Source: Kineosporia sp. R_H_3
Lineage (GTDB): Bacteria > Actinomycetota > Actinomycetes > Actinomycetales > Kineosporiaceae
Direction of reading: 5' to 3'
DNA: 64,000 nt
Assembly (NCBI RefSeq): GCF_002198675.1
Contig: NZ_MWLL01000016.1
Location: forward strand, 1-64,000
How positions within the stretch are numbered: position 1 is the stretch's first letter; every line of letters starts with the position of its first letter. Below, piece by piece: positions 45,149-63,896 of the stretch. The translations under genes were made by a program, and so were the position numbers. Below the pieces are notes generated by a model. It had not been told where the DNA came from, did no database searches, and saw only the letters and a program-made list of their open reading frames with translations.

Positions 45149-45561
45149 GAAAGGCCCGTACCGACCCGGTACGACGAGCGCCCCACTCGTCCACCGGGCC
45201 CGCGGGCCGGACGCGGCGACGACAGGTCCGCCCTGTGCCTGTCGCAGCCGCCGGGACCCCCAGGTCTGCCCCGGCCTGGGGGTCCCGCCGTCCGCGTCGC
45301 CGGCGCCATATCACTGTGCGTCGATCACGTATACCCCCCAACTTTCGGCACTGCCACCACCACTGCGCGGCTGCCAGGGACCTCGGTCCCTGGACGAGGG
45401 TTCGGTGCAGTGGAAAACCACGCCCTCCGCGGGGCGGTCAGGCGTGGTGGAACTCAGGCAACACAGTGCGTCCCACCGCCATGGGCTCGGTCGGTGAGGA
45501 CGGTTCCCGGACCGTGCAGCAGCCGGTCCGGTGGGGCGAAGGAAGCACCGCGGAGGTGCCC
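45149..45561. other. regulatory region before the second giant gene
   Basis: About 410 bases without a convincing gene: after the terminator come a GC-rich stretch, an AT-richer pocket at 45305-45360 and box 3. In-frame codons upstream of GTG 45562 exist but lack a ribosome site. Confidence 0.5.
45377..45390. promoter_or_regulatory. GGGAC-N4-GTCCC palindrome, box 3
   Basis: GGGACCTCGGTCCC, extended to CCAGGGACC..GGTCCCTGG, 171 bases upstream of the second giant secreted gene; same half-sites and spacing as box 1. Confidence 0.65.
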
Positions 45562-48500
45562 GTGTTCAACAACCCGGCAGCGACTGTGGCGGCGCGTGCG
45601 CGTCGGTCCACCCGGCTGCGTCGACTGGTCGCCACCGCAGTGGCAGTGCCCCTCGCAGTCCTCGGTCTCGTGACCGTGGGCGCCCCTGCCGCGCAGGCGG
45701 CCGCCGTGGCGCCGGCCACCCAGACCCTGCCGGGCAGCGGGTTCCCCGCCTGGTACGAGGACAACAACGGCAACCGGGTCGAGGCCTGCATCGAGGCCAA
45801 CGACCCGAACTGCGTCCTGCCGGGTGCGGAGCCGGACTACAACCCGGCTGCCCCGCTGAGCTTCCCGACGAACTACCCGAGCGAGTTCTTCTACGCGTAC
45901 GCGCAGTCCTCGAACGTCGCGACCCCCGGCTGCGGCACCTCGCCCGCCGGTCGGGCGTTCGTCACGCTCGCGATCGAGGGGGCCTTCATCGGCGGTGCCC
46001 CCAAGGCCGGGGACCAGATGACCTTCGGTCGCGTCCGGGTCCGCGCGACGAGCGGCCTCTGCCCGGGCCAGGCGTACACCTTCCAGCACCCGTTCGGCAC
46101 GGTGACCCTCACCGCCAACGCGGCCGGCGCGATCCCGGTGAACACCCCCGGCGCGACCGTCGACGTCGGCTGCGTCCCGACCACCCTCGTGCTGTGCAAC
46201 TTCTCCCTGGCCACCGGTTCGCCGGTCATGGGCAGCGCCACCGCGGGCTTCCTCAAGTGGGACCCGGCCGTCGGGCCGGCCGCACCGCCCGGCTACCTGG
46301 GCGACGGCGTCACCCCGCACCCGATCGTCGGCGCGAACGGCCCCGGCAGCGCGAACAACCTCACCGTCTCCGGCTCCGACGGCGCCGGCGGCGTCTGGAC
46401 CGGGACGACGAACCTGTTCACCGTGGCCGGCCGGCTCGCCGAGACCGTGGCGAGCCCGAGCCCGCTCGACTTCGGCGGCCAGGCCGTGGGGGTCCGTAGC
46501 ACCACCCGCACGGTCACCGTGACCAACCTCGGCAAGGCGACGCTCACCATCCCCAACGGTGGTGTGACGATCGCCGGCCCGGCGAACATCTTCCGGCTCA
46601 ACGGCACGAACTCCTGCAACCGCGCGGTGCTCGCCCGGAACGCGACGTGCACGTTCGGCGTGAACTTCCAGCCGCCCGTCCTCGGCCCGTCCACGGCGAA
46701 CAGCGTCAACGTCGCCTTCACCGGCGGGTCCCGGTCGCCGCTGAACATCCCGCTGCTCGGCACCGGCACGACGGCCGGCGCGCAGCCGGTCGTCACGGCG
46801 ACGCCGAACCCGCTCGCCTTCGGTGACGTCCGGATCAAGACGACGTCCACCCTGCCCTTCACTGTGACCAACTCGGGCACCTCCCCGCTGGCGGTCTCCT
46901 CGGTCGACTTCGACCTCGCGCCGGGGAGCGAGGCGGACCAGTTCCGGGTCGCCTCGACGACGTGCACCGGTGTCACGGTCGCCGCGGGCGCCTCGTGCTC
47001 GGTCTCGGTGATGTTCGCGCCCACGGCTCCCGGGCCGCACACCGCGACCGTCCTCGTCGCGAGCAACGTGGTGGCCACGCCGACCCGAGTCACCGTCACC
47101 GGCAACGCGACGGGCGGCGTCGCCGCGGTGGCGACGGACAAGCTCCCCGTCGACGAGTTCCCGACCTGGTACCGCGACGAGAACGGGGTCAAGGTCTCGC
47201 AGTGCATCGACCCGGACGACCCGTTCTGCGTCGTGCTGCCGGACGCGACCTTCACCCGGGGCCAGCCGCTGAGCTTCCTGCCCGCGGCCCCCGGCAAGGC
47301 GCTGAACTTCCCGGGTGAGTTCTTCTACACGGTCGCCGACTCCGACCAGCTCACGACCCCGGGCTGCGCCGGGACGGCGCCGGGCAAGGCCGCCTACCGC
47401 AGCGCCATCGAGGGCACGTTCGTCAACGGCGACCCCGTCGACACCGAGCAGATGGTGTTCGGCCGCGAGCGGTTCTTCGTGACGAGCGGCCTGTGCCCCA
47501 ACACGAACTACACGGTGACGAGCCCGTACGGGCGCACCGTCATCCAGTCGAACGCCAAGGGCGGGATCGCCCGCAACGCGTCGACGGTCGACATCGGGTG
47601 CGCCCCGGTCGCGCCGGCGGTGTGCGACTTCTCCGAGGCGCTCAGCTCCCCGGTCCTCGGCGGGATCCTCCGTTGGGACCCGGCCGTCGCGCCGGCCGCC
47701 CCGGCGGGCTACATCGGTGACGCGGCGTCGTTCCACAAGGTCATCGGCGCCCCGTTCAAGGAGGACGGGGTCAACCCGTCCAACTACTTCAAGATCACCG
47801 GCCCCGGCCTGCCGCCCGCCGGGCTGCAAACCTCGCAGTTCTCCGTCATGGGCAAGCTCCAGGGCCCGCTCGAGGCGACCGGCGGCGTCAGCGCCGCGGG
47901 CAAGCTCGTCCTCGACACCACGGCCGTGGGCAGCGTCTCCCCGGCCAAGACGCTCACGGTGACGAACACCGGCGTCGCGGTCCCGGGCGGCTCCGACGGC
48001 CGCGTGACGCTGTCGGGCATCACCGTCGGCGGTGTCGACGCAGCGGAGTTCGCGGTCGCCGGAGGCACCTGCACCGCGACGACGACCCTGGCGCCCGGTG
48101 ACACGTGCACCGTGGACGTCACCTTCGCCCCGGTCGCGACCGGGGTCCGGGCAGCGACCCTGACGTTCACGAACAACGGGCTCAACAACCCGTTCGTCGT
48201 GCCCCTCGAGGGCACCGGCAGCGACCCGACCGGTGCGGCGATCAGCTTCGCCCCGAGGTCGCTGACGTTCGGGCAGCTGGGCATCGGGCGCTCCAGCAGC
48301 GCCGAGACGGTGACCATCTCCAACGCCGGCGGGACCGCACCCCTGGTGGTCAGCGGGTTCACGCTCGGCGGCGCGGCGCCCGGCTCCTACGCCTTCACGA
48401 ACAGCACCTGCGCCGACCCGGTGGCGCCGGACGCGAGCTGCACCGTCGACGTCGTCTTCTCCCCGACGGCCGGCGGCGCGCAGAACGCCACGCTGTTCGT

Positions 48501-50295
48501 CTCGGACAACGTCGGGGCGGGCCAGCACTCGATCGCGTTGACCGGCAGCGGGTTCGCCGGTGCCAAGTCGGTGTCCGCGAGCGTCGGCAGGTTCGGCTAC
48601 CCGACCTTCTACCAGGACTCGAACGGGACCCGGCTCGAGCCGTGCCTCGACCCGGCCAACTGCGTGCTCCTCGGGGTCCCGCAGCCCGACCAGCCGCTCG
48701 CCCTCCCGGACAACTTCCCGGACGAGTTCTTCTACGCCTTCGCGACGAGCGACATCCTCTCGATCCCGGGCTGCAACCCCGGCGACCCGGCGGGCAGCGC
48801 GTTCCTCGTGTCCGGCCTCGAGGGTTCGTTCGCGACGACGGCCGGGCCGGTGGCCGGTGACCAGACGACGTTCACCCGGTTGCGGCTCGTCGCCAGCGGG
48901 CTGTGCCCGAACGTCGGCCCGGACGCTCCGTACACCGCGGTGACGCCGTACGGGACGTTCGCCTTCACGACCGACGCGAACGGCGCCGTCCGGCCGAACG
49001 CGCAGACGCAGGACACCGGCTGCGGGGCCGCCCCGTGCGCCTTCGGGGACGCGCTCGCCAGCCCGGGAGCGGTCTTCGTCAACGCGGCGACGCCGATCGA
49101 GGGCTTCCTGCGCTGGGACCCGAACGCGGCGACGCCGCCCGCCGGCTACCTCGGTGACGCGACGAGCTTCCAGAAGGTCATCGGTGGTACCTACGTCAAG
49201 CCGGGTGCCACGGGCGCGTTCAACGGGTTCGAGATCCAGGACCCGACGACCCGCGTCCTGGCGAGCACCGACCGCTGGCAGGTGGCCGGCAAGATCGCCG
49301 GTCCGCTGGCGCCGGACGCGTTCGCGCTCGACTTCGGTGCCGTCGACCAGGGGCAGTCCAGCCCGACGCAGACCGTCGTCGTGACGAACGTCGGCGCGGA
49401 CACGGCCGGGGTCACGCCGAGCCTCACCGGCACCGGTGCGAGCCAGTTCGCGATCACCGGCGGCACCTGCGCGGCGGGTACCGCGGTCGCCCAGGACGCG
49501 ACCTGCACGGTGGTCGTCCGGTTCAGCCCGACGACCGGGACCGGGCCGCTCGCCGCGACCCTGACCCTCAAGCCGGCCACGGGCCCGTCGGCGACGGTCT
49601 CCCTCACCGGTGTCGCCAACGAGGTGGCCAGGCCGAGCATCACCGTGACGCCGGGCGTCCTGTCCTACGGCACCGTGACGGCCCCCGGACCGTCGTCGCT
49701 CTCGACGACGGTCACCAACACCGGGACGGCGCCGCTCACCGTCAGCGCGGCCACGGTGACCTCGGGGGCGAGTGACTACGCGGTCACCGGAGGGACGTGC
49801 GGCGCCGCACCGTTCACCGTCGCCGGTGGGGCGAGCTGCACGGTCACCGTGCGGTTCGTGCCGACGGCGATCGGGGCGCGGACCGGGGCGCTGACCCTGA
49901 GCCACAACGCCGTCGGCGGGAGCACCGTGGTCTCGCTGACCGGCACCGGTGCCGGGGCCAGCTGGTCGGTCTCGCCGAGCCCGGTCGGGTTCGGCACGGT
50001 GAACCGCGGGACGACGAAGACGTCGACCCTCTCGGTGAAGAACACCGGCACGGCCAACGGAACGATCGCCGCGGCCACCACGGTCGTCAGCGGTCTGCCC
50101 TTCGGGGTCGTCGTGAACCCGGCGACGAGCACCTGCTTCAACGGCACGGCGGTCGCCCCGGGGAAGACGTGCGGCATCAGCGTCACGTTCACCCCGACCG
50201 CGGTGCAGACCTACAACGGCACGCTGACCATCGACGGCGGAGCGTCCTCCCTGCCCCGCCTGACGACGGTCACCCTCACCGGTACGGGCAAGTGA
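45562..50295 (+). CDS. giant secreted protein, paralogue of the preceding gene
   Basis: About 1577 residues with the same architecture: signal peptide (VATAVAVPLAVLGLVTVGAP, then AAQAA), three cysteine modules starting near 58, 531 and 1011 (FPAWYEDNNGNRVEACIE; FPTWYRDENGVKVSQCID; YPTFYQDSNGTRLEPCLD) and Hydin-like beta domains (SCTVTVRFVPTAIGARTGAL). Position-by-position equivalence with its neighbour shows a whole-gene tandem duplication after the internal triplication. GTG 45562 is chosen because GGAGG ends 5 bases upstream and the signal peptide then has a normal length; ATG 45481 and GTG 45556 are alternatives. No anchor motif; it ends TLTGTGK. Confidence 0.85.
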   Translation: MFNNPAATVAARARRSTRLRRLVATAVAVPLAVLGLVTVGAPAAQAAAVAPATQTLPGSGFPAWYEDNNGNRVEACIEANDPNCVLPGAEPDYNPAAPLSFPTNYPSEFFYAYAQSSNVATPGCGTSPAGRAFVTLAIEGAFIGGAPKAGDQMTFGRVRVRATSGLCPGQAYTFQHPFGTVTLTANAAGAIPVNTPGATVDVGCVPTTLVLCNFSLATGSPVMGSATAGFLKWDPAVGPAAPPGYLGDGVTPHPIVGANGPGSANNLTVSGSDGAGGVWTGTTNLFTVAGRLAETVASPSPLDFGGQAVGVRSTTRTVTVTNLGKATLTIPNGGVTIAGPANIFRLNGTNSCNRAVLARNATCTFGVNFQPPVLGPSTANSVNVAFTGGSRSPLNIPLLGTGTTAGAQPVVTATPNPLAFGDVRIKTTSTLPFTVTNSGTSPLAVSSVDFDLAPGSEADQFRVASTTCTGVTVAAGASCSVSVMFAPTAPGPHTATVLVASNVVATPTRVTVTGNATGGVAAVATDKLPVDEFPTWYRDENGVKVSQCIDPDDPFCVVLPDATFTRGQPLSFLPAAPGKALNFPGEFFYTVADSDQLTTPGCAGTAPGKAAYRSAIEGTFVNGDPVDTEQMVFGRERFFVTSGLCPNTNYTVTSPYGRTVIQSNAKGGIARNASTVDIGCAPVAPAVCDFSEALSSPVLGGILRWDPAVAPAAPAGYIGDAASFHKVIGAPFKEDGVNPSNYFKITGPGLPPAGLQTSQFSVMGKLQGPLEATGGVSAAGKLVLDTTAVGSVSPAKTLTVTNTGVAVPGGSDGRVTLSGITVGGVDAAEFAVAGGTCTATTTLAPGDTCTVDVTFAPVATGVRAATLTFTNNGLNNPFVVPLEGTGSDPTGAAISFAPRSLTFGQLGIGRSSSAETVTISNAGGTAPLVVSGFTLGGAAPGSYAFTNSTCADPVAPDASCTVDVVFSPTAGGAQNATLFVSDNVGAGQHSIALTGSGFAGAKSVSASVGRFGYPTFYQDSNGTRLEPCLDPANCVLLGVPQPDQPLALPDNFPDEFFYAFATSDILSIPGCNPGDPAGSAFLVSGLEGSFATTAGPVAGDQTTFTRLRLVASGLCPNVGPDAPYTAVTPYGTFAFTTDANGAVRPNAQTQDTGCGAAPCAFGDALASPGAVFVNAATPIEGFLRWDPNAATPPAGYLGDATSFQKVIGGTYVKPGATGAFNGFEIQDPTTRVLASTDRWQVAGKIAGPLAPDAFALDFGAVDQGQSSPTQTVVVTNVGADTAGVTPSLTGTGASQFAITGGTCAAGTAVAQDATCTVVVRFSPTTGTGPLAATLTLKPATGPSATVSLTGVANEVARPSITVTPGVLSYGTVTAPGPSSLSTTVTNTGTAPLTVSAATVTSGASDYAVTGGTCGAAPFTVAGGASCTVTVRFVPTAIGARTGALTLSHNAVGGSTVVSLTGTGAGASWSVSPSPVGFGTVNRGTTKTSTLSVKNTGTANGTIAAATTVVSGLPFGVVVNPATSTCFNGTAVAPGKTCGISVTFTPTAVQTYNGTLTIDGGASSLPRLTTVTLTGTGK

Positions 50296-55274: not shown

Positions 55275-56084
55275 CTACTTGACCTCGGCGCGCACAACGG
55301 CGAAGAGACCGACGACGAGCGGGGCGAGCAGCCAGACCGCGGCGCTGGCGGCGAGGTGCTCCCACTGCGCCGCCGTCAGCGTGCCGTCGACGAGCGTCCC
55401 CTGGGCGTACCGCAGGTCGACCCAGGGCTGCACGGTGCGGAACCAGGCCTGCGAGCCGGCGAGGACGACGGCCAGGGCCGGCAGCACGAGCGCGTAGCCG
55501 AAGTACGCGACGACCGCCCCGACCGAGCTGCGCAGGAGCACCCCCAGCACGAAGCCGACGAGGACGCCCAGCACGTTCGAACCGACGATCGTCAGCATGC
55601 TCGTCGCGGTGACGTCCCAGACCGGGGCGATGCCGGCGAGCGAGCTGCCGGCGAGGTTGCCCAGCGCCGCGGCCCCGAGGGCGAGCGGTACGGCGGCGAC
55701 GGCGACGCCGACGCACGCGACCGCCTTGGCGGCGACGACCCGGCCGCGCCGGGGCACGAGGGTGAACGTCGTGAGGCCGCTGCGCTGGCTCCACTCGGAC
55801 GTCACGGAGAGGATCGCGACGACCGGCAGCACGAGGGTGAGCGGGTAGTCCACGGCCGTCGTGAACGCGCGGTACGTCATCCCCGCGTCCGAGGCGAGCG
55901 CGGCGACGGCCGCCGAGGCGAGCAGCGCGAGCAGCCCGACGCCGGCCACGAGCCAGAACCCGGAGCGGGTGTCGAAGAGCTTGCGCACCTCGGTCGTCAC
56001 GATGCGGCGCAGGGGGATCGAGGGGCGGGCGGACGGCGGCCCGCCGGGCCCGGGGCCCGCGGCGAGGGTGTCGAGGGTGGTCAC
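55275..56084 (-). CDS. ABC transporter permease
   Basis: A 269-residue membrane protein with six hydrophobic segments (FWLVAGVGLLALLASAAVAALA, YPLTLVLPVVAILSV, VACVGVAVAAVPLALGAAAL, GSNVLGVLVGFVLGVLLRSS, VLPALAVVLAGS, WLLAPLVVGLFAVV), of the ABC-2 type. GTG 56084 overlaps the ATPase stop by 4 bases. Works with the ATPase next door; substrate unknown. Confidence 0.9.
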   Translation of the reverse strand: MTTLDTLAAGPGPGGPPSARPSIPLRRIVTTEVRKLFDTRSGFWLVAGVGLLALLASAAVAALASDAGMTYRAFTTAVDYPLTLVLPVVAILSVTSEWSQRSGLTTFTLVPRRGRVVAAKAVACVGVAVAAVPLALGAAALGNLAGSSLAGIAPVWDVTATSMLTIVGSNVLGVLVGFVLGVLLRSSVGAVVAYFGYALVLPALAVVLAGSQAWFRTVQPWVDLRYAQGTLVDGTLTAAQWEHLAASAAVWLLAPLVVGLFAVVRAEVK

Positions 56085-56806
56085 GCGACGACTCCTTCGG
56101 TGAGGTCGAGGAAGAGCTGCTCGAGGCCGCCGCCGTCCGCCGCGGGCCCGACGGCCCGGAGCAGGTCGGCCTTCGTGCCGCGGGCCACGACCCGGCCGCC
56201 GGCGAGGACGACGAGGTCGTCGGCGACGACCTCGATCTCGTGGATCAGGTGCGAGGAGAGCAGGACGGTCCCGCCGCGGTCGGCGAAGTCGCGCAGCAGC
56301 CCGCGCATCCAGCGGATGCCGGCCGGGTCGAGCCCGTTCGCCGGCTCGTCGAGGACGAGGACGGCGGGGTCGCCGAGGAGCGCCGTCGCGATGCCGAGGC
56401 GCTGCCGCATCCCGAGCGAGTAGTCACGGACGCGACGCGACGACTCCTGCGGCGTGAGCCCGACGACGGCGAGCATCTCCTCGACCCGGCCGCGGGGCAG
56501 CCCCATGTAGCGCTGCGCGACCGTCAGGGTCTCGCGGCCGGTGCGGCCGACGTGCTGGGCGGACGCGTCGAGGAGCACCCCGACCTCCCGTCCCGGGTCG
56601 GGCAGGTCGACGTACCGGCGGCCGCCGACCGTCGCCGTCCCCGACGTCGCGGTCGACAGCCCGACGAGGATCCGCAGGGTCGTCGACTTGCCTGCGCCGT
56701 TCGGGCCGAGGAAGCCCGTCACGCGCCCCGGCAGCGCGGCGAAGGTCACGTCGTCGACGGCGGTGAAGCCGCCGTACCGGCGGGTGAGAGCGTCGACGGC
56801 GATCAC
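56081..56806 (-). CDS. ABC transporter ATP-binding protein
   Basis: A 241-residue ATPase with Walker A GPNGAGKST, signature YSLGMRQRLGIA, Walker B VLVLDEPANGLDP and switch His in LLSSHLIHEIE. Drug/antibiotic-exporter subfamily (DrrA-like) by length and the permease type. ATG 56806 overlaps the upstream small gene by 4 bases. Confidence 0.95.
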   Translation of the reverse strand: MIAVDALTRRYGGFTAVDDVTFAALPGRVTGFLGPNGAGKSTTLRILVGLSTATSGTATVGGRRYVDLPDPGREVGVLLDASAQHVGRTGRETLTVAQRYMGLPRGRVEEMLAVVGLTPQESSRRVRDYSLGMRQRLGIATALLGDPAVLVLDEPANGLDPAGIRWMRGLLRDFADRGGTVLLSSHLIHEIEVVADDLVVLAGGRVVARGTKADLLRAVGPAADGGGLEQLFLDLTEGVVA

Positions 56807-57126
56807 GACGTGGGCCGCTTGTGGGAGGGTGCCGCGGCGGGCACCTGCTCGACCGAGACGAGCGCGAGCCCGGTGTCGCGGACCTTCTGCAGCACGCCGT
56901 GCAGGGCCGCCTGGTCGGTGACGGGGCCGGCGATCCGGGTCGTGCCGTCGCCGAGCCGGTCGAGCGTGAGCCCGTCGAACCAGGCCGCCCAGCGGCCGGC
57001 GAGGTGCCCCCGGACCCGGATCTCGTAGTGGCCGGCGCCGGGTCGGTCTGGTCCGTCAGGTCCGTCAGGGCCGTGGGGGCCGTGGGGGCCGTCGGGGGCG
57101 CCGTGCGGGAGGTCGGTGTCGTCCAT
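56803..57126 (-). CDS. small protein with collagen-like Gly-Pro run, first gene of ABC operon
   Basis: A 107-residue protein. Residues 8-30 form a collagen-like GPH/GPD tripeptide run; residues 33-95 look like a small alpha/beta domain (HYEIRVRGHLAGRWAAWFDGLTL) seen as a lone domain in other actinobacteria. ATG 57126 is 7 bases beyond a -10-like TAGCCT (57133-57138), so the mRNA may be leaderless; an operator-like inverted repeat lies just upstream. Confidence 0.7.
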   Translation of the reverse strand: MDDTDLPHGAPDGPHGPHGPDGPDGPDRPGAGHYEIRVRGHLAGRWAAWFDGLTLDRLGDGTTRIAGPVTDQAALHGVLQKVRDTGLALVSVEQVPAAAPSHKRPTS

Positions 57127-57145
57127 GCCCGCAGGCTAGGAACGG

Positions 57146-57170
57146 ATGTGGTGAGCCCGGATCACCACAT
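57146..57170 (-). promoter_or_regulatory. operator 1 for the MalT-like regulator (predicted)
   Basis: Read on the minus strand: ATGTGGTG-N9-CACCACAT, perfect 8-bp arms, ending 7 bases before the -10-like TAGCCT of the ABC operon. The same repeat, spacer and distance occur at 61363-61387. Confidence 0.7.
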
Positions 57171-59888
57171 GTGGTGGTTGTGCCGGGGAGCCCCGGGGGA
57201 GAGCAGGTCGAGCTCCTGCGCGCGGCGGACGGCGGCCCGCCGGCTGTTGACGCCGAGCTTGGCGTAGATGCTCTTCGTGTGCGTGCGCACGGTGTTCAGC
57301 GACACGACGAGCTCCCCGGCGATCTCCGGCCCGCTGAGCTCGGTCGCGAGCAGCCGCAGCACGTCGCGCTCCCGGTCGCTGAGCGGTTCGACGAGGGGCT
57401 GCCGGGCCGGCGGCCGCGGGGCGTCCGCGCCGCCGGCGGCGAGCAGCCGCGCGGCGTACCCGCCCGCGGGGCCGCGCTCGGCGGCCGCCCGGAGCAGGGC
57501 GGCCAGCGGCGGGCCCTCGTCGAGGAAGAGGCGGACGTAGCCCTCCGGCCCGGCGAGGGCCAGCGCGCGCCCGAGCGGCTCGAGCGCACCGCGGGCGTCG
57601 CCGCCCGCACGCGCGGCGAGCGCTCGCAGGAGAAGCACCTCGACGAGGCTGCCGGTGCGCCCGCCCGCATCGGCGGCCGCGGCGAGCCGGTCGAGGAGCG
57701 AGGCGGCCGCGGCCAGGGCGTCGCCGTCCCCGTCGGCACCGTGCCGGGCGAGGAGCGCCCGGGCGAGGGTCACGTGCTCGTACTCGCGCAGGTGGTCGGG
57801 CTCGTCGTCGACGGACAGGCCCCGCTCCCGGACCCAGTCCAGGACCTCGGCGAGCCGGCCCTGGACGAGCAGGGCCCGGGCCCGGACGGCCGCGACGGGG
57901 CGCACGTCCGGGGCCATGTCCCCGACGTACCGGCGCCGCGCCTCGTCGAGCAGGGCCAGCGCCTCGAGCGGGTCGCCCTGCACCTGGAGCAGCCGGGCCC
58001 GGACGACGCGGCTGCGGTACGGGTTCTGCGGCAGCCCGTTGTGCTCGCCGAGGTCCTCGGCCTGCGCGAGGACCCGGCCCGCCTGCTCCGGGTCGCCCTG
58101 CTCGAGGTCGAGGGCGGCGAGCCCGACGAGCATGTCGGCCGTGCCGCGCAGCGGCGGGCCGCCGTCCGCTGGGCGCAGCCGCAGCGCCCGCTCGTAGGTG
58201 CGCCGGGCGTCCCGCAGCCGGCCCTGCGTGACCTGGATGTCGGCGAGGGAGAGGGAGCAGCCGAGGACGTCGGAGGCGTGCCCGGCCCGCTCCAGGCTCA
58301 CGAGGCACTCGGAGTACCCGGCGACGGCCGCGTCGAGGTCCCCGGTGACCCAGGACGCCAGTCCGACGAGCGCGGTCGCCGCGCCCCGGGCGATGTGGTG
58401 GTCCTCCTCGAGCAGCCCCAGGGCACGCCGGGCGTGGGTCACGGTCGCGGCGGGGTCGCCGAGCGCCAGGGCGAGACCGGCCCGGTGGACGGCGATCCCG
58501 GCCGGGACCCGGCGCAGCTCCTGCTCGTCCCGGGCGCGCGGGCCGTCGGCCAGCGCCTGCTCGGCGTCGCGCAGGTGCTGCTCGACGCCCCGGACCTCAC
58601 CGGTCGACAGCAGCGCGCCCGCGAGACCGTTGGCGAGCACCGGCCGCGCCCGGACCAGCCCGGCCGGCAGCTGCTCGATCCAGTGCCGCAGCGCGGCCTC
58701 CTGCCGGGTGCGCCGCGCGTCGGGCATCGCCAGCTCGACGAGGTCGGCGGCGCGCTCGTGGTCCTGCGCGGCGGTCGCGTGCCGGATCCCTTCGGCGGGG
58801 TCGCCGTTCGCGGCGTACCAGTCGCTCGCGCGCCGGTGCAGGGTGCGCACGAGGCCGGGCGACTCCTCGACGAGCCTGGCCCGCAGGACGTCGCCGAACA
58901 GGTGGTGGTAGCGGTAGGCCCGGCGGTGGTCGTCGAGCGGGACGACGAAGAGGTTGCCCCGGTCGAGCGCCTCGAGCGCGGCGCGGCCGTCCTGCCGGCC
59001 GGTCACGGCGTCGCACAGCGGGCCGGTGAGGCGGGCCAGCACGGACGTCTGCAGGAGGAAGTCGCGGACCGGCGCCGGCTGGCGGTGCAGGACCTCCTCG
59101 ACGAGGTAGTCGACGACGTAGCGGTCGTCGCCGGTGAAGCCCGCGACGAAGCCGGTGACGTCCTCACGGCCCTGCATCGACAGCGCCGCGAGCTGGAGGG
59201 CGGCGATCCACCCCTCGGTGCGGTCCTCCAGGGCCTCGACGTCCCCGGCCGTGACCGTGAGCCCCATGGCCCCGACGAGGTACTCGGCGGCCTCGTCGGG
59301 GGTGAAGCGCAGGTCGGCGGCGCGGACCTCGACGAGCTCGCCGCGGGCCCGCAGCCGGGCCAGCGGCAGCGGCGGGTCCGCGCGGCCGGCGAGCACGAGC
59401 CGGACGCGCGGCGGCAGGTGCTCGACGAGGAACGCCATCTCCTCGTGGACCTCGCGGGCCTCGACGAGGTGGTAGTCGTCGAGCACGAGCACGACCTCGC
59501 CGCCGGGCGCGGCGAGGTCGTTGAGCAGGGTCGTCAGCACGAGCCGGGTCTGCACCGGTCCGCCGCTGCCGAGCAGCGCCAGGGCGTCGGCACCGGCCTC
59601 CGGCGCGACCGTCCGCAGCGCGGTGACCACGTAGGTCCAGAAGGTGACGGGGTCGTCGTCGCCACGGTCCAGCGACAGCCACGCCGCCCGCCGGCCGCGC
59701 GGCGGCGCCTCCTGCCCGGCCAGCCACTGGGTGAGCAGCGTCGTCTTGCCGAAGCCGGCCGGGGCGCACACGAGCACGACCTTCGCCCCTGCCGCGCCGT
59801 CCAGCCGTCGCAGGAGCCTCGCGCGCGGCACCACCCCCGCCCGCGGCCGGGGCAGGTACAGCTTGGTCCGCAGCAGAGGGGCCGGCAT
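57162..59888 (-). CDS. large ATP-binding LuxR-family (MalT-like) regulator
   Basis: A 908-residue LAL regulator. Walker A APAGFGKTTL is at 42-51 and Walker B-like VVLVLDDYH near 130; a STAND-type core and TPR-like helical repeats fill the middle; the C-terminal LuxR HTH reads LSDRERDVLRLLATELSGPEIAGELVVSLNTVRTH. Such proteins activate transcription when bound to ATP and an inducer. ATG 59888 follows GGGAGA. Downstream of two membrane-protein genes on the same strand. Its probable operators are at 57146-57170 and 61363-61387. Confidence 0.93.
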   Translation of the reverse strand: MPAPLLRTKLYLPRPRAGVVPRARLLRRLDGAAGAKVVLVCAPAGFGKTTLLTQWLAGQEAPPRGRRAAWLSLDRGDDDPVTFWTYVVTALRTVAPEAGADALALLGSGGPVQTRLVLTTLLNDLAAPGGEVVLVLDDYHLVEAREVHEEMAFLVEHLPPRVRLVLAGRADPPLPLARLRARGELVEVRAADLRFTPDEAAEYLVGAMGLTVTAGDVEALEDRTEGWIAALQLAALSMQGREDVTGFVAGFTGDDRYVVDYLVEEVLHRQPAPVRDFLLQTSVLARLTGPLCDAVTGRQDGRAALEALDRGNLFVVPLDDHRRAYRYHHLFGDVLRARLVEESPGLVRTLHRRASDWYAANGDPAEGIRHATAAQDHERAADLVELAMPDARRTRQEAALRHWIEQLPAGLVRARPVLANGLAGALLSTGEVRGVEQHLRDAEQALADGPRARDEQELRRVPAGIAVHRAGLALALGDPAATVTHARRALGLLEEDHHIARGAATALVGLASWVTGDLDAAVAGYSECLVSLERAGHASDVLGCSLSLADIQVTQGRLRDARRTYERALRLRPADGGPPLRGTADMLVGLAALDLEQGDPEQAGRVLAQAEDLGEHNGLPQNPYRSRVVRARLLQVQGDPLEALALLDEARRRYVGDMAPDVRPVAAVRARALLVQGRLAEVLDWVRERGLSVDDEPDHLREYEHVTLARALLARHGADGDGDALAAAASLLDRLAAAADAGGRTGSLVEVLLLRALAARAGGDARGALEPLGRALALAGPEGYVRLFLDEGPPLAALLRAAAERGPAGGYAARLLAAGGADAPRPPARQPLVEPLSDRERDVLRLLATELSGPEIAGELVVSLNTVRTHTKSIYAKLGVNSRRAAVRRAQELDLLSPGAPRHNHHMW

Positions 59889-59936
59889 GACGTCTCCCGT
59901 CACCGGGCGTCGCGGCGGGGGCTCCCGCCGACGCCG

Positions 59937-60620
59937 TCACCGCGTCCGGACGCCCACAGTATCCCCGGGGGCGTCCCCGGCGACGGCGACGGCGGCCCTG
60001 CGGCCGGCGCGTGGACGCCGGACGACGACCTCGGCGACGACGGCGTTGAGCACCCACCCCGCGGTGAGCGACAGCGCCGTGCTGAGGTCGCCCGTGCCGA
60101 AGAGCGCGTTGCCGAAGCCCTGCGTGAAGGTCTGGGTGCCGGCGGCCACGGCCAGCGCGTACGCCCGGATCATCCAGGCGCGGTGGGCGGGGACGTCCCG
60201 CCGGCGCACGGCGGTGACGCCGAGGACGACGCCGGCGGCGACCGCCGTCCCGACGACGAACCGGACGACCTGGAGCAGCACGCCGCCCGGCGCGTCCGGG
60301 TAGAACAGCGTCATCCAGACCCCGGACAGGGCCACCACGGCACCGGCGACGACGGCCGCCCGGCCGTTGCGGCGGTGCCGGTCGGGGTGCGCGCGACGCT
60401 GCCGGGCGGAGAGCTGGAACGCCCCGAGGACGGCGTAGACGGCCGCCGCGACGACGTGCAGCACGAGCGGCACCGGGACGGCGTCCACCCGGGGGTTCTC
60501 CGGGAGCAGCCGCGGGCCGCCGAGGATCTCGACGATCCGCAGCGACCCGGCGGCGAGCGGGAGGACCACCAGGGCCACCAGGGCCAGCGGCACCCGCCAC
60601 CCGCCCGCGGCGCGGGTCAC
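59937..60620 (-). CDS. DUF2306 membrane protein
   Basis: A 227-residue protein with six to seven hydrophobic helices and the DUF2306 landmarks HVVAAAVYAVLGAFQLS and RRDVPAHRAWMIRAYAL. GTG 60620 overlaps the upstream DUF4386 stop by 4 bases. Function unknown; co-expressed with the MalT-like regulator 48 bases downstream. Confidence 0.85.
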   Translation of the reverse strand: MTRAAGGWRVPLALVALVVLPLAAGSLRIVEILGGPRLLPENPRVDAVPVPLVLHVVAAAVYAVLGAFQLSARQRRAHPDRHRRNGRAAVVAGAVVALSGVWMTLFYPDAPGGVLLQVVRFVVGTAVAAGVVLGVTAVRRRDVPAHRAWMIRAYALAVAAGTQTFTQGFGNALFGTGDLSTALSLTAGWVLNAVVAEVVVRRPRAGRRAAVAVAGDAPGDTVGVRTR

Positions 60621-61306
60621 TCGACGGCCGTCGCGGCGAGCACCGGAGACGTCCCGGCGGCCGCACCGGTGCCGGTGGTGCTGCCGCCGACGCTCCACAG
60701 CGACCAGCCGAGCGCGATCATCGCGATGCCGTTCGGGAACGCGAGCAGCCGGAAGAACGCGTCGGGCATGAAGGTCAGGGCCGCCGAGACGACGCCGCCG
60801 ACGGCGAGGAGCAGGCAGGCCCACCGGGCCAGCACCCGGGCCCGGTACATCGCGACGCCGAGGAGCAGACCGCCGCCGAGGTAGGCGACGCCCTGGAGCT
60901 TGATCACCGTGGCGAGGTGGCCGATGTCGCCGACCGCCTGGCCGCCGGTCGCCACCGCGGTGACGTCGTCGACGTACGCCGGGACGGCGGCCGCGACCGA
61001 CGGCAGGACGAACGCCGCCACGAACGCGGTGCAGGCGATGAGCAGGTAGCCGGCGGCCAGCAGGAGGTAGCCGACGAGGCCGAGGACCCCGGCCTGCCGC
61101 ACCTGGCGCAGGTACATGCCGGTGATGCCGAGCAGCGCCAGGGCGGCCATGACCACCTTGAGGCTGTCGCGGACGAGCATCTCGGTGCTCGTGACGGTGA
61201 CCGCGTCGAGGTGCGGGTGGGCGACCTGGACGCCGATGAACAGCAGCCCGGAGGCGACGGCGGCCAGGCCTGCGGACCGGCTGAGGGTGGTGGGGGAGAG
61301 AGTCAT
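60617..61306 (-). CDS. DUF4386-like membrane protein
   Basis: A 229-residue protein with six hydrophobic segments (AAVASGLLFIGVQVA, VVMAALALLGITGMYL, VGYLLLAAGYLLIACTAF, GVAYLGGGLLLGVAMY and others), resembling DUF4386 proteins. ATG 61306 follows AGGAAG. It heads the operon DUF4386, DUF2306, MalT-like regulator, controlled by the operator-like repeat at 61363-61387. Confidence 0.8.
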   Translation of the reverse strand: MTLSPTTLSRSAGLAAVASGLLFIGVQVAHPHLDAVTVTSTEMLVRDSLKVVMAALALLGITGMYLRQVRQAGVLGLVGYLLLAAGYLLIACTAFVAAFVLPSVAAAVPAYVDDVTAVATGGQAVGDIGHLATVIKLQGVAYLGGGLLLGVAMYRARVLARWACLLLAVGGVVSAALTFMPDAFFRLLAFPNGIAMIALGWSLWSVGGSTTGTGAAAGTSPVLAATAVE

Positions 61307-61362
61307 GGCGCTTCCTGTTCCGATCGTCCGGGGGACTGCGGGTGCTCGGAACGTAGGCGCCG

Positions 61363-61387
61363 AGGTGGTGGCCGGTCCTCACCACAT
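61363..61387 (-). promoter_or_regulatory. operator 2 for the MalT-like regulator (predicted)
   Basis: On the minus strand: ATGTGGTG-N9-CACCACCT followed after 7 bases by the -10-like TACGTT (61350-61355). Arms, spacer and distance equal operator 1. Lies in the region shared with the divergent tatD gene. Confidence 0.7.
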
Positions 61388-61429
61388 GATGTGAACGAGG
61401 TGGTGACATCGGGACGGCAGAATCGGGGC

Positions 61430-62296
61430 GTGGCCTTCTCCCGTCCGCCGGCGCCCGAGCCGCTGCCCCTGCCCGTCGTCGACAACCACGCCCACCTCGA
61501 CCACACCCGTGGCGGGGACGAGCCGTTCGACGTCGCGGACGCGATCGCCGCGGCGGCCGCGGTCAACGTGACGCGGCACGTGCAGATCGGCTGCGAGCTC
61601 GAGTCCGCGCGGTGGACGGTAGACGTCGTCGACCGCTTCCCGCAGGTGCTCGGCGGGGTCGCGCTGCACCCGACCGAGGCGACCAGGATCGTTGCGGCGC
61701 AACCGGATCCGGTGAGCGGGCGGAAGGCGCTCGAGGAGGCGTTCGCCGAGATCGAGGCGCTCGCGGCGCACCCGCGGGTGCGGGTCGTCGGCGAGACCGG
61801 GCTCGACCACTACTGGGTGGACGCCGACGACACCGCCGGCCGGGCGGCGCAGGTCGAGTCGTTCGCGCGGCACGTCGACCTCGCCAAGCGGCTCGGCAAG
61901 GTGCTGCAGATCCACGACCGGGACGCGCACGACGCCGTCCTCGACGTGCTCGCCGCCGAGGGCGCACCCGCGCGCACCGTCTTCCACTGCTTCTCCGGGG
62001 ACGCCGCGATGGCGAAGGTCTGCGCCGACAACGGGTGGTTCCTGTCCTTCGCGGGCACCCTGACGTTCAAGAACGCGCAGGAGCTGCGCGACGCCCTGCG
62101 CGCCGTCCCGCTCGAGCAGGTGCTCGTGGAGACCGACGCGCCGTACCTCACCCCGGCGCCGTACCGCGGCAAGGTCAACGCGGGCTACCTCGTGCCGCTC
62201 ACCGTGCGTCGCATGGCGGAGGTGCTCGAGGTCGACCTGGATGCGCTCTGCGCGCGGCTGGACGCGACGTCCGAGGCCCTGTACGGCCCATGGTGA
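61430..62296 (+). CDS. tatD: TatD-family metal-dependent hydrolase
   Basis: A 288-residue TIM-barrel hydrolase. Metal ligands are in DNHAHLDH, VVGETGLDHYW, LQIHDRDAHDAVL, FHCFSGDAAMA and LVETDAPYLTP, the complete TatD set. The family has 3'-5' exonuclease activity on DNA/RNA. GTG 61430 gives the expected N-terminus; no clear ribosome site. In actinobacteria it normally precedes rpfB, as here. Confidence 0.93.
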   Translation: MAFSRPPAPEPLPLPVVDNHAHLDHTRGGDEPFDVADAIAAAAAVNVTRHVQIGCELESARWTVDVVDRFPQVLGGVALHPTEATRIVAAQPDPVSGRKALEEAFAEIEALAAHPRVRVVGETGLDHYWVDADDTAGRAAQVESFARHVDLAKRLGKVLQIHDRDAHDAVLDVLAAEGAPARTVFHCFSGDAAMAKVCADNGWFLSFAGTLTFKNAQELRDALRAVPLEQVLVETDAPYLTPAPYRGKVNAGYLVPLTVRRMAEVLEVDLDALCARLDATSEALYGPW

Positions 62297-62699
62297 GCAC
62301 GCAGCGCGAAACACCAGTCACACCAGTCACATCCGCCCCGCCCGGCATGCCGGGAACGGCTCTCGAACACCACGCCGACACGCGCGACACGGCGATGGAG
62401 GTCATCTGCGTGTAACAACTGCTGTGACCTCGAACACCCGGAGCAACCCGGCTCTGACCTGCGAAGACTCCGGAGCGTCAGGTCGTGCGGCGTGTCGGGG
62501 GCCGTTCTCGCGACGCTGTGTGGCTTGGTCCCCGGTCTCGTTTCGATTACGTTGGCGCCCGACAGCCGGGGTCGGTCGACCTCGGGGGCAACGCGCGACG
62601 CGCACCGCACCGCCACCGGGACGACCTCCCCACGGCAGGGAGCGCGTACCGGGGGCACGCAGGCGTCCTCCACCGTCGCACGGATGCGACGAGACGAAG
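62297..62699. other. intergenic region with probable structured leader of rpfB
   Basis: 403 bases with no gene. TACGTT at 62548-62553 is a possible -10, giving a 5' leader of about 140 bases that is very GC-rich and contains GACAGC and GGGAGCG segments. c-di-AMP (ydaO-type) riboswitches often precede rpf genes in actinobacteria, but the match is not good enough to call one. Confidence 0.35.
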
Positions 62700-63896
62700 A
62701 TGCGCCCGCCCCCGGTCGCCGTGCTCGGACATCGCAAGGTCTGGAGCGTCGTGCTCAACGTTCTCATCGGCAAGCCCGGCAAGGGCCGCGTCCTGCGGCT
62801 CGGCGCCCAGGCGGCCGTCCTCACCGCGGTCGTCGGCGGCACCGTCGCGTTCGCGAACCAGGACACCGACGTGGACCTCACGGTCGACGGCAGGACCACG
62901 CTGGTCTCCGAGGACGCCGACACGGTCGGCGAGCTGCTCGCGGCCCGCGGCATCCGGCTCGGTGCGCGCGACGTCGTCGCCCCCTCGCCGGCGGCGAAGA
63001 TCGAGGACGGCGACGACGTCGTCGTCCGGTACGCGCGCCAGCTCGAGGTCTCGGTCGACGGCAAGACGCAGACCTTCTGGACGACGGAGCTCACCGTCGA
63101 CTCCGCGCTGCGGGCCGTCGGCATCCGCGCCGACGGGGCCCGGCTCTCCGCGTCGCGCTCGCTCCCGCTCGGCCGGCAGGGCCTCGCCCTCGTCGTCACG
63201 ACGCCGAAGAAGGTGACGCTCGTCGCCGACGGCAAGCGCGCCAAGGTCACGACGACGGCCCCGACCGTCGGCGACCTCCTCGACGAGCAGGGCCTCACGC
63301 TCGGCAAGGACGACAAGCTCTCGGTCTTGGAGTCGACGCCGACGGTCAAGGGCCTCGTCGTGGCCGTGACCCGGATCGACAAGAAGACCGTGACGAAGAC
63401 CGAGAAGGTCTCGTACACCACGAAGTCCGTGAAGAGCGCCAAGCTCTACAAGGGCGAGAAGAAGGTCGTCACCGAGGGCGTCCAGGGCAGCCGCAAGGCG
63501 ACGTACGCCGTGACCCTCGCCGACGGCAAGGTCGTCAGCAAGAAGCTCGTCGACGCGACCGTCACGAAGAAGCCGGTGACGCAGGTCGTCCAGGTCGGCA
63601 CGAAGGCCCGGCCGGCGTCCTCGTCCGGTGGCGGCGGCGGCTCCGTCGCGGGTGCCGACAGCCTCAACTGGGCCGCGCTCGCGAAGTGCGAGTCCGGCGG
63701 CAACCCGTCGATCGTCAGCTCGAACGGGCTCTACCACGGGCTCTACCAGTTCAGCGTCTCGACGTGGCGCGCCGTCGGCGGCTCCGGCCTGCCGAGCCAG
63801 GCGTCGGCGGCCGAGCAGACGTACCGAGCGAAGCTGCTCTACAAGAAGGCCGGCGCCGGCCAGTGGCCGCACTGCGGTCCCCGGCTCTTCACCTGA
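62700..63896 (+). CDS. rpfB: resuscitation-promoting factor (RpfB type)
   Basis: A 398-residue secreted cell-wall enzyme. An N-terminal signal anchor (AAVLTAVVGGTVAFA) precedes three DUF348 repeats (each starting VxLTVDGRxTLV / VSVDGKTQTFW / VTLVADGKRAKV), a G5 domain (about 225-300), a Ser/Gly linker and the Rpf transglycosylase domain (LNWAALAKCESGGNPSIVSS) with the catalytic Glu in CESGG. It cleaves peptidoglycan and stimulates resuscitation of dormant cells. ATG 62700 is the best start in frame; a later GTG near the conserved LNVLIGKPGKGRVLRL is possible. Confidence 0.95.
   Translation: MRPPPVAVLGHRKVWSVVLNVLIGKPGKGRVLRLGAQAAVLTAVVGGTVAFANQDTDVDLTVDGRTTLVSEDADTVGELLAARGIRLGARDVVAPSPAAKIEDGDDVVVRYARQLEVSVDGKTQTFWTTELTVDSALRAVGIRADGARLSASRSLPLGRQGLALVVTTPKKVTLVADGKRAKVTTTAPTVGDLLDEQGLTLGKDDKLSVLESTPTVKGLVVAVTRIDKKTVTKTEKVSYTTKSVKSAKLYKGEKKVVTEGVQGSRKATYAVTLADGKVVSKKLVDATVTKKPVTQVVQVGTKARPASSSGGGGGSVAGADSLNWAALAKCESGGNPSIVSSNGLYHGLYQFSVSTWRAVGGSGLPSQASAAEQTYRAKLLYKKAGAGQWPHCGPRLFT

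Follow-up and report, generated by a model that had tools for sequence, protein, structure and literature searches.

A candidate operator of a MalT-like LAL regulator at two promoters of Kineosporia sp. R_H_3 and its recurrence among LAL-carrying actinobacteria

Actinobacteria possess many LAL/STAND regulators whose DNA targets are unknown, and a locus on contig NZ_MWLL01000016.1 of Kineosporia sp. R_H_3 raises the question of whether a repeat recurring on both sides of one such regulator gene is its operator. The stretch analysed here, called the window, comprises 64,000 nt of this contig (whole assembly, 7.26 Mb), and all coordinates of its sites and genes refer to it. A sequence-only reading had proposed two copies of ATGTGGTG-N9-CACCACMT, each separated by exactly seven bases from a TANNNT -10 hexamer, with the gene of a MalT-like regulator between them. 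Both copies are present on the minus strand without a mismatch (operator 1, 57146-57170; operator 2, 61363-61387), the seven-base gap was confirmed at both, the hexamers being TAGCCT (57138-57133) and TACGTT (61355-61350), and the core GTGGTG-N9-CACCAC (57148-57168 and 61365-61385) flanks the LAL gene at 57162-59903. We put at roughly 85% the probability that these elements are the operator-promoters of the neighbouring LAL protein, which would activate, in the fashion of MalT, an autoregulated regulon of two promoters.

A window scan with up to three mismatches allowed returned four matches, namely both sites on each strand, compared with a mean of 0.45 in 100 shuffles, one of which reached four. 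The exact core occurs at only two places in the whole assembly and a reversed control pattern at none. Because composition alone predicts about 0.8 exact cores per genome (0.007 per window), the genome-wide count is by itself unremarkable; what is unusual is that a single regulator gene has a copy on either side, the two being 4.2 kb apart. Within the genus, 3 of 3 genomes contain both sites, and a covariance-model scan of the R_H_3 genome recovered them as its two strong matches (E 1.5e-14 and 3.8e-13), followed by a next best at 0.16, with no further regulon member better than that value.

The extent of the element became apparent from comparison across genomes. A weight matrix built from 25 sites and run on 33 fetched LAL regions gave one strong match per ortholog region, two each in L087, L109 and the window, and no match above 12 in five regions with distant LALs (L106, L107, L108, L110 and L111). 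Thirty sites could be aligned without gaps and, together with 21 held-out sites, make up the 51 on which the counts below are based; chance-level matches in L197, L198 and L201 were left out of the held-out column counts, and one class site that had no locus of its own (G443:C79, 38.2 bits) stands outside the 21. Counted from the first base of the half-site R, the layout comprises D1 (TCACCAC, -20 to -14), D2 (TCACCAC or TCACATC, -8 to -2), R itself (TGTGGTGA, 0 to 7), D3 (TCACCAC, 15 to 21) and the TANNNT hexamer (31 to 36). Within one mismatch of seven, and with D2 scored against the better of its two forms, D1 is found in 35 of the 51 sites, D2 in 47, R in 45 and D3 in 43, while the TGA of R and the A and last T of the -10 hexamer are invariant in all 51. 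The full operator contains up to four TCACCAC half-sites, D2 and R forming an overlapping pair, TCACCA-N4-TGGTGA, and the N9 palindrome noticed earlier is the right half of this D2-R pair plus the extra half-site D3 in the -35/-10 spacer; the shared architecture proposed for the two promoters stands, and the repeat runs farther upstream than had been supposed.

In operator 1, all on the minus strand, D1 lies at 57183-57189 within the 3′ end of the LAL gene, D2 (CCACCAC) at 57171-57177, R (TGTGGTGA) at 57162-57169, its TGA serving as the LAL stop codon, and D3 (TCACCAC) at 57148-57154, between the -35 and -10 positions; behind the predicted -10, TAGCCT (57133-57138), the predicted +1 coincides with the first base of the ATG at 57126, which would make this start leaderless. 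Operator 2, on the same strand, consists of D1 (TCACCAC, 61400-61406), D2 (TCACATC, 61388-61394), R (TGTGGTGA, 61379-61386), D3 (CCACCAC, 61365-61371) and a predicted -10, TACGTT (61350-61355), with a predicted +1 at 61343 and a 37-nt leader to the ATG at 61306. In region L003, a tandem duplication affects the upstream part of operator 2. The sequence of operator 1 also encodes the C-terminal LAL residues HNHHMW, and similar HH..W tails occur in several LAL orthologs, some of them past a stop codon.

The genes behind the element are conserved as well. Operator 1 does precede the ABC operon, as had been stated, yet its first gene is not an ABC gene but encodes a 107-aa protein, sp107 (57126-56803), and the first gene behind operator 2 encodes a 229-aa protein, MP229 (60617-61306). 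At all 21 held-out loci examined, a homolog of sp107 or MP229 lies downstream in the direction of the element (in L199, sp107 is split over two frames), including loci where the LAL gene is non-adjacent or on another contig. Among the neighbours of LAL orthologs, as judged by tblastn, sp107 was found in nearly all and MP229-DUF2306 or ATPase-permease genes in many.

The position of the element relative to the -10 hexamer is nearly fixed. TANNNT occurs at offset 31 in 47 of the 51 sites and NANNNT in every one; when held-out sites were located with a matrix restricted to the operator columns, TANNNT was present at offset 31 in 18/21 and at no other offset looked at in these 21 sites. No TTGACA-like -35 box was seen, at least three of its six positions being mismatched in 48 of the 51 sites. 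With the first T of the -10 taken as -12, the D2-R pair spans -51 to -36 and D3 -28 to -22, and the 3′ end of R lies about 35 nt from +1, a distance measured to starts predicted from sequence, not mapped. In ten sp107 genes, an in-frame start (the earliest candidate having been taken) lies exactly 6-7 nt after the -10, and the other sp107 and MP229 starts found lie 33-78 nt after it, apart from a questionable GTG in L097; at four sites, this leader-length analysis yielded no start. The grouping of starts at 6-7 nt agrees with leaderless transcription and supports the predicted -10. The whole arrangement, an operator at a fixed distance upstream of a -10 in a promoter with no -35 box, is that expected of a class II activator promoter, and the suggestion that an activator overlaps the -35 region agrees with this comparison, given the fixed spacing, the missing -35 consensus and the span of D2-R.

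Genomes of the order and of the class were scanned with a sequence-only covariance model built on the 30 aligned sites. In the order sample, 66 of 396 genomes carry a LAL at E ≤ 1e-30, 28 with at least 46% identity and the rest at 28-40%; the element (E ≤ 1.7e-8) was detected in 28 genomes, exactly those with the ortholog, and in none of the other 368, where the best match was 4.2e-4 (Fisher p 1.5e-43), a co-occurrence with some circularity, those sites having served to build the model. In the class sample, the element (E ≤ 1e-5) is found in 24 of 394 genomes, every one of which belongs to the 35 that carry a LAL at E ≤ 1e-90, and in none of the 359 outside them (p 2.7e-30), two other genomes reaching about 6e-4; 19 of the 24 positives belong to other orders, from which no site had contributed to the model. 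The motif, for which a search for more members had been proposed, thus recurs across the class with fixed geometry beside LALs of 46-64% identity, and its co-occurrence with the ortholog in 28/28 order-sample genomes and with a LAL in 24/24 class-sample positives argues strongly, by sequence comparison, for the LAL as its cognate regulator.

The LAL protein itself (913 aa, minus strand) combines a STAND ATPase, a MalT TPR region (PF17874, E 4.3e-66) and a GerE-type helix-turn-helix (HTH) at residues 840-895 (PF00196, E 1.1e-14). Its N-terminal NOD ATPase is homologous to that of MalT (phmmer to 8bob, residues 12-388, E 1.1e-57), and the protein scores under the cut-off of the NCBIfam MalT equivalog NF003420 (407.8 vs 537 bits). 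Its nearest relative found in a named strain, from Kineosporia sp. A_224, is 92% identical. Across 47 HTH rows from operator-positive loci, G858, P859 and S868 are present in all 47, R873 in 46, T874 in 44 and T876 in 46; in ten comparison rows, position 873 is K in eight and position 876 is V, M or L in all ten. By analogy with LuxR-family structures, we take these residues to face the DNA. Among the operator-positive rows, those scoring no more than 60 bits were excluded (a split L171 row and neighbouring HTH proteins), and the comparison rows are unfiltered, one of them (the second L173 row) coming from a neighbouring protein. A recognition helix that is near-invariant where the operator is present and different in distant LALs is consistent with changed specificity; it is not proof of it, because overall divergence is also greater in the comparison LALs.

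Related systems offer partial precedents. In Actinoplanes sp. SE50/110, another actinobacterial MalT-like LuxR protein, ACSP50_3915, is associated with TCATCC-N5-GGATGA overlapping the -35 region, its 3′ end 34.4 +/- 1.0 nt from mapped starts, and its activator role was established by deletion and overexpression (PMC7567727). The two systems share inverted hexamers at a similar position, measured here to predicted starts; they differ in that the present operator reads TCACCA-N4-TGGTGA with D1 and D3 added, in the number of target promoters (two vs 17) and, as far as PMC7567727 tells, in the kinds of target genes. MalT is described as alternating between a monomeric form and oligomers with bound ATP, which occupy several sites, and malPp800 is a MalT promoter with four (PMC10427625). 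The LAL resembles E. coli MalT in its NOD ATPase homology, MalT TPR region and LuxR HTH, whereas the MalT box is given in PMC7567727 as GGGGA(T/G)GAGG, compared with TGGTGA here. The core here, TGGTGA or TCACCA-N4, matches neither of the MalT-box cores GGA(T/G)GA and TCATCC-N5-GGATGA, and unlike in E. coli no maltose genes lie behind these operators. Sites of NarL/GerE-type regulators are 7-2-7 inverted heptamers, and D2-R can be read in the same way as TCACCAC-AT-GTGGTGA beneath a GerE-type DNA-binding domain; the sequence is a different one, and the LAL is a STAND protein, not a response regulator. The SARP-LAL PimR likewise has heptameric repeats at an activated promoter, there arranged directly and bound through the SARP domain (PMC5930380), whereas only a GerE HTH was found in this LAL.

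No description of this operator or regulon was found in the portion of the open-licence PMC literature covered, where the operator strings matched papers with mostly animal-study titles; within that literature, the locus would represent a MalT-like LAL regulon with a previously undescribed operator of its own. For one LAL family, sequence data would thereby supply a precisely defined operator set at a constant distance within its promoters, together with a minimal regulon of two promoters and a target family that is conserved and uncharacterised. Regulation in the manner of MalT would reach beyond maltose genes, and the contacts of oligomeric STAND activators with RNA polymerase could be studied in a simple system.

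The proposed mechanism is as follows. The active LAL, presumably as ATP- and ligand-dependent oligomers as in MalT, would bind three to four TCACCAC half-sites, with D2-R overlapping the -35 region, D1 upstream and D3 in the -35/-10 spacer, and would bring RNA polymerase to promoters with a TANNNT -10 in the absence of a -35 box, as in class II activation. Operator 2 would drive MP229, DUF2306 and LAL, amounting to positive autoregulation, and operator 1 would drive sp107, ATPase and permease via a leaderless start. Binding and its cooperativity, activation rather than repression, and autoregulation are what we infer from the comparisons above. A bolder extension appears rather unlikely: a previously undescribed STAND-LAL regulon would span the class, and its core target, the sp107 family, made up of small proteins with a ferredoxin-like fold, often leaderless and mostly located shortly after the operator of the LAL, would be a partner of the regulator and feed back on it, much as MalT is controlled by MalY, Aes and MalK; the four-half-site operator would place a STAND oligomer with one DNA-binding domain in the -35/-10 spacer.

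Several observations weigh against activation by the LAL at these sites. D1 of operator 1 is degenerate (TCCCCGG), two of the 30 model sites (L084 and L095) have no sp107 or MP229 homolog behind them by tblastn, and the remaining three held-out sites have GANNNT at offset 31, without the first T. In the class sample, the element is missing from 11 of the 35 genomes with the LAL; eight of these have LALs of 36-44% identity, in G409 and G426 a contig end truncates the LAL ahead of its HTH, and G627 (46% identity, a partial match) is unexplained. Both the order and the class scans were run with stricter filters that lose weak matches. Finally, D3 occupies the -35/-10 spacer, within one mismatch in 43 of 51 sites, a position from which a bound protein might block RNA polymerase.

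This last point leads to the alternative that the LAL binds these operators as a repressor, with negative autoregulation. A shorter LAL, SCO6993, is reported to be a repressor that binds palindromes (PMC9628970). Promoters with no -35 box, however, would be weak unaided, D2-R, measured to predicted starts, occupies the same position as the site of the activating MalT-like protein of Actinoplanes (PMC7567727), and MalT is itself an activator (PMC10427625), which leaves repression an unlikely reading compared with activation by the LAL.

It is very improbable that a different regulator, encoded elsewhere, binds the sites and the LAL is merely a neighbour. The element does sit at sp107 and MP229 promoters and not always beside a LAL gene (L180, L183, L184, L187, L196, L199 and L200), but it tracks the LAL from genome to genome (28/28 vs 0/368 and 24/35 vs 0/359), genomes without the element have LALs with a different recognition helix, and a remote regulator would need an identical distribution. 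Even less plausible is a role of the palindrome as RNA, ending or attenuating transcription where the LAL gene stops, for which the overlap of the inverted repeat of operator 1 with the LAL stop codon might speak; the element lies upstream of the -10 and outside the predicted target transcript, neither operator 2 nor the L081 site comes after the LAL gene on that gene's strand, and neither the direct repeats D1 and D2 nor the fixed -10 distance has a hairpin role. The hairpin was rejected on position, without folding. Chance repetition of a GC-rich motif can practically be dismissed, despite the exact cores expected by composition, the exact cores in most other family genomes and the placement of the two examined (L037 and L045) inside long open frames, being excluded by the held-out scan and by the conserved geometry beside divergent LALs across orders. 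The L037 and L045 cores were themselves set aside as coding matches with no flanking half-sites.

All six genes of the locus lie on the minus strand. MP229, hydrophobic by reading, matches no Pfam family above cut-off, and the DUF4386 label that the sequence-only reading had given to it did not hold, as a scan for PF14329 up to E 10 gave no match; true DUF4386 proteins do follow sp107 elsewhere (L105, 3e-47; L087, 3e-39; others alike by blastp). The DUF2306 label of the next gene (59937-60620, PF10067) was correct. Behind sp107 (56803-57126) follow an ABC transporter ATPase (56081-56806, PF00005) and an ABC-2 type permease (55275-56084, PF12730, under its curated cut-off). Because MP229/DUF2306, sp107/ATPase and ATPase/permease each overlap by 4 bp and the LAL start lies 33 nt past the end of DUF2306, a single transcript from operator 2 could span the whole locus, in which case operator 1 would be an internal promoter. 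The start of a divergent TatD-type DNase gene (61430-62296) lies about 23 bp beyond D1 of operator 2, so operator 2 could act on that gene too.

For sp107, the topology predicted from two sequences is beta-alpha-beta-beta-alpha-beta (mean pLDDT 70.8); as searches gave neither a family in Pfam or NCBIfam nor, with profiles run against the PDB up to E 1, a relative, and no confident structural relative (Foldseek best E 0.011) was found, only a fold class is offered. In L101, the sp107 domain is fused in frame to a GNAT acetyltransferase domain (Pfam), and the sp107 frames of L087, L100, L103 and L182 resemble this fusion by eye. The ATPase resembles lantibiotic-protection and drug-export ATPases at scores below their cut-offs (175.6 vs 309.75 and 166.9 vs 312.45), and PADLOC gave shared-domain matches only, for the ATPase and for the LAL HTH stretch (830-894). 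Given the ABC-2 exporter and the membrane proteins, an envelope or antimicrobial stress module may be guessed at as the physiological role. A fungal DUF2306 membrane protein is reported to be involved in an epoxidation (PMC12895699), and no paper on DUF4386 was found in the open-licence PMC literature.

Region L087 (genome G305) carries two adjoining LAL paralogs, one with sp107-ATPase-permease and the other with MP229-DUF2306-sp107, each with its own operator, and at the window locus both kinds of neighbourhood seem to have been joined, each having apparently kept its operator. Near the LAL in two genomes, weaker operators were seen upstream of a gene resembling, by eye, FAD oxidoreductases in L089 (11389-11437, minus strand, E 1.8e-5) and of a quinone-oxidoreductase-like one, likewise by eye, in L087 (15126-15175, plus strand, E 7.4e-4). 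Their D2-R pairs join TCATCAC or TCACCAC to GTGGTGA, D1 is absent, and -10-like hexamers are present (TACCGT at offset 30 in L089, TACCTT at offset 31 in L087); both are possible extra members of the regulon. In L111 (9598-9867, reverse-strand coordinates), a distant sp107 homolog (38.9 bits) adjoins a LAL that lacks the operator, which suggests that the association of sp107 with LALs may be older than the operator. In L141 (genome G045), a site at 1501-1555 on the minus strand (E 1.3e-3; TCACCCC/GGGGTGA with TAGCGT) precedes a sulfatase-like frame; the closest LAL of that genome reaches only 36% identity, and the site is possibly the sister operator of a more distant LAL. Intermediate matches in L140 and L201 contain little beyond D3 and a -10. 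Elsewhere in the window, a 1686-aa frame with repeated ASPM-SPD-2-Hydin-type Ig-like domains occupies 45235-50295, and a resuscitation-promoting-factor-like gene with DUF348 repeats, G5 and transglycosylase-like domains lies at 62241-63896.

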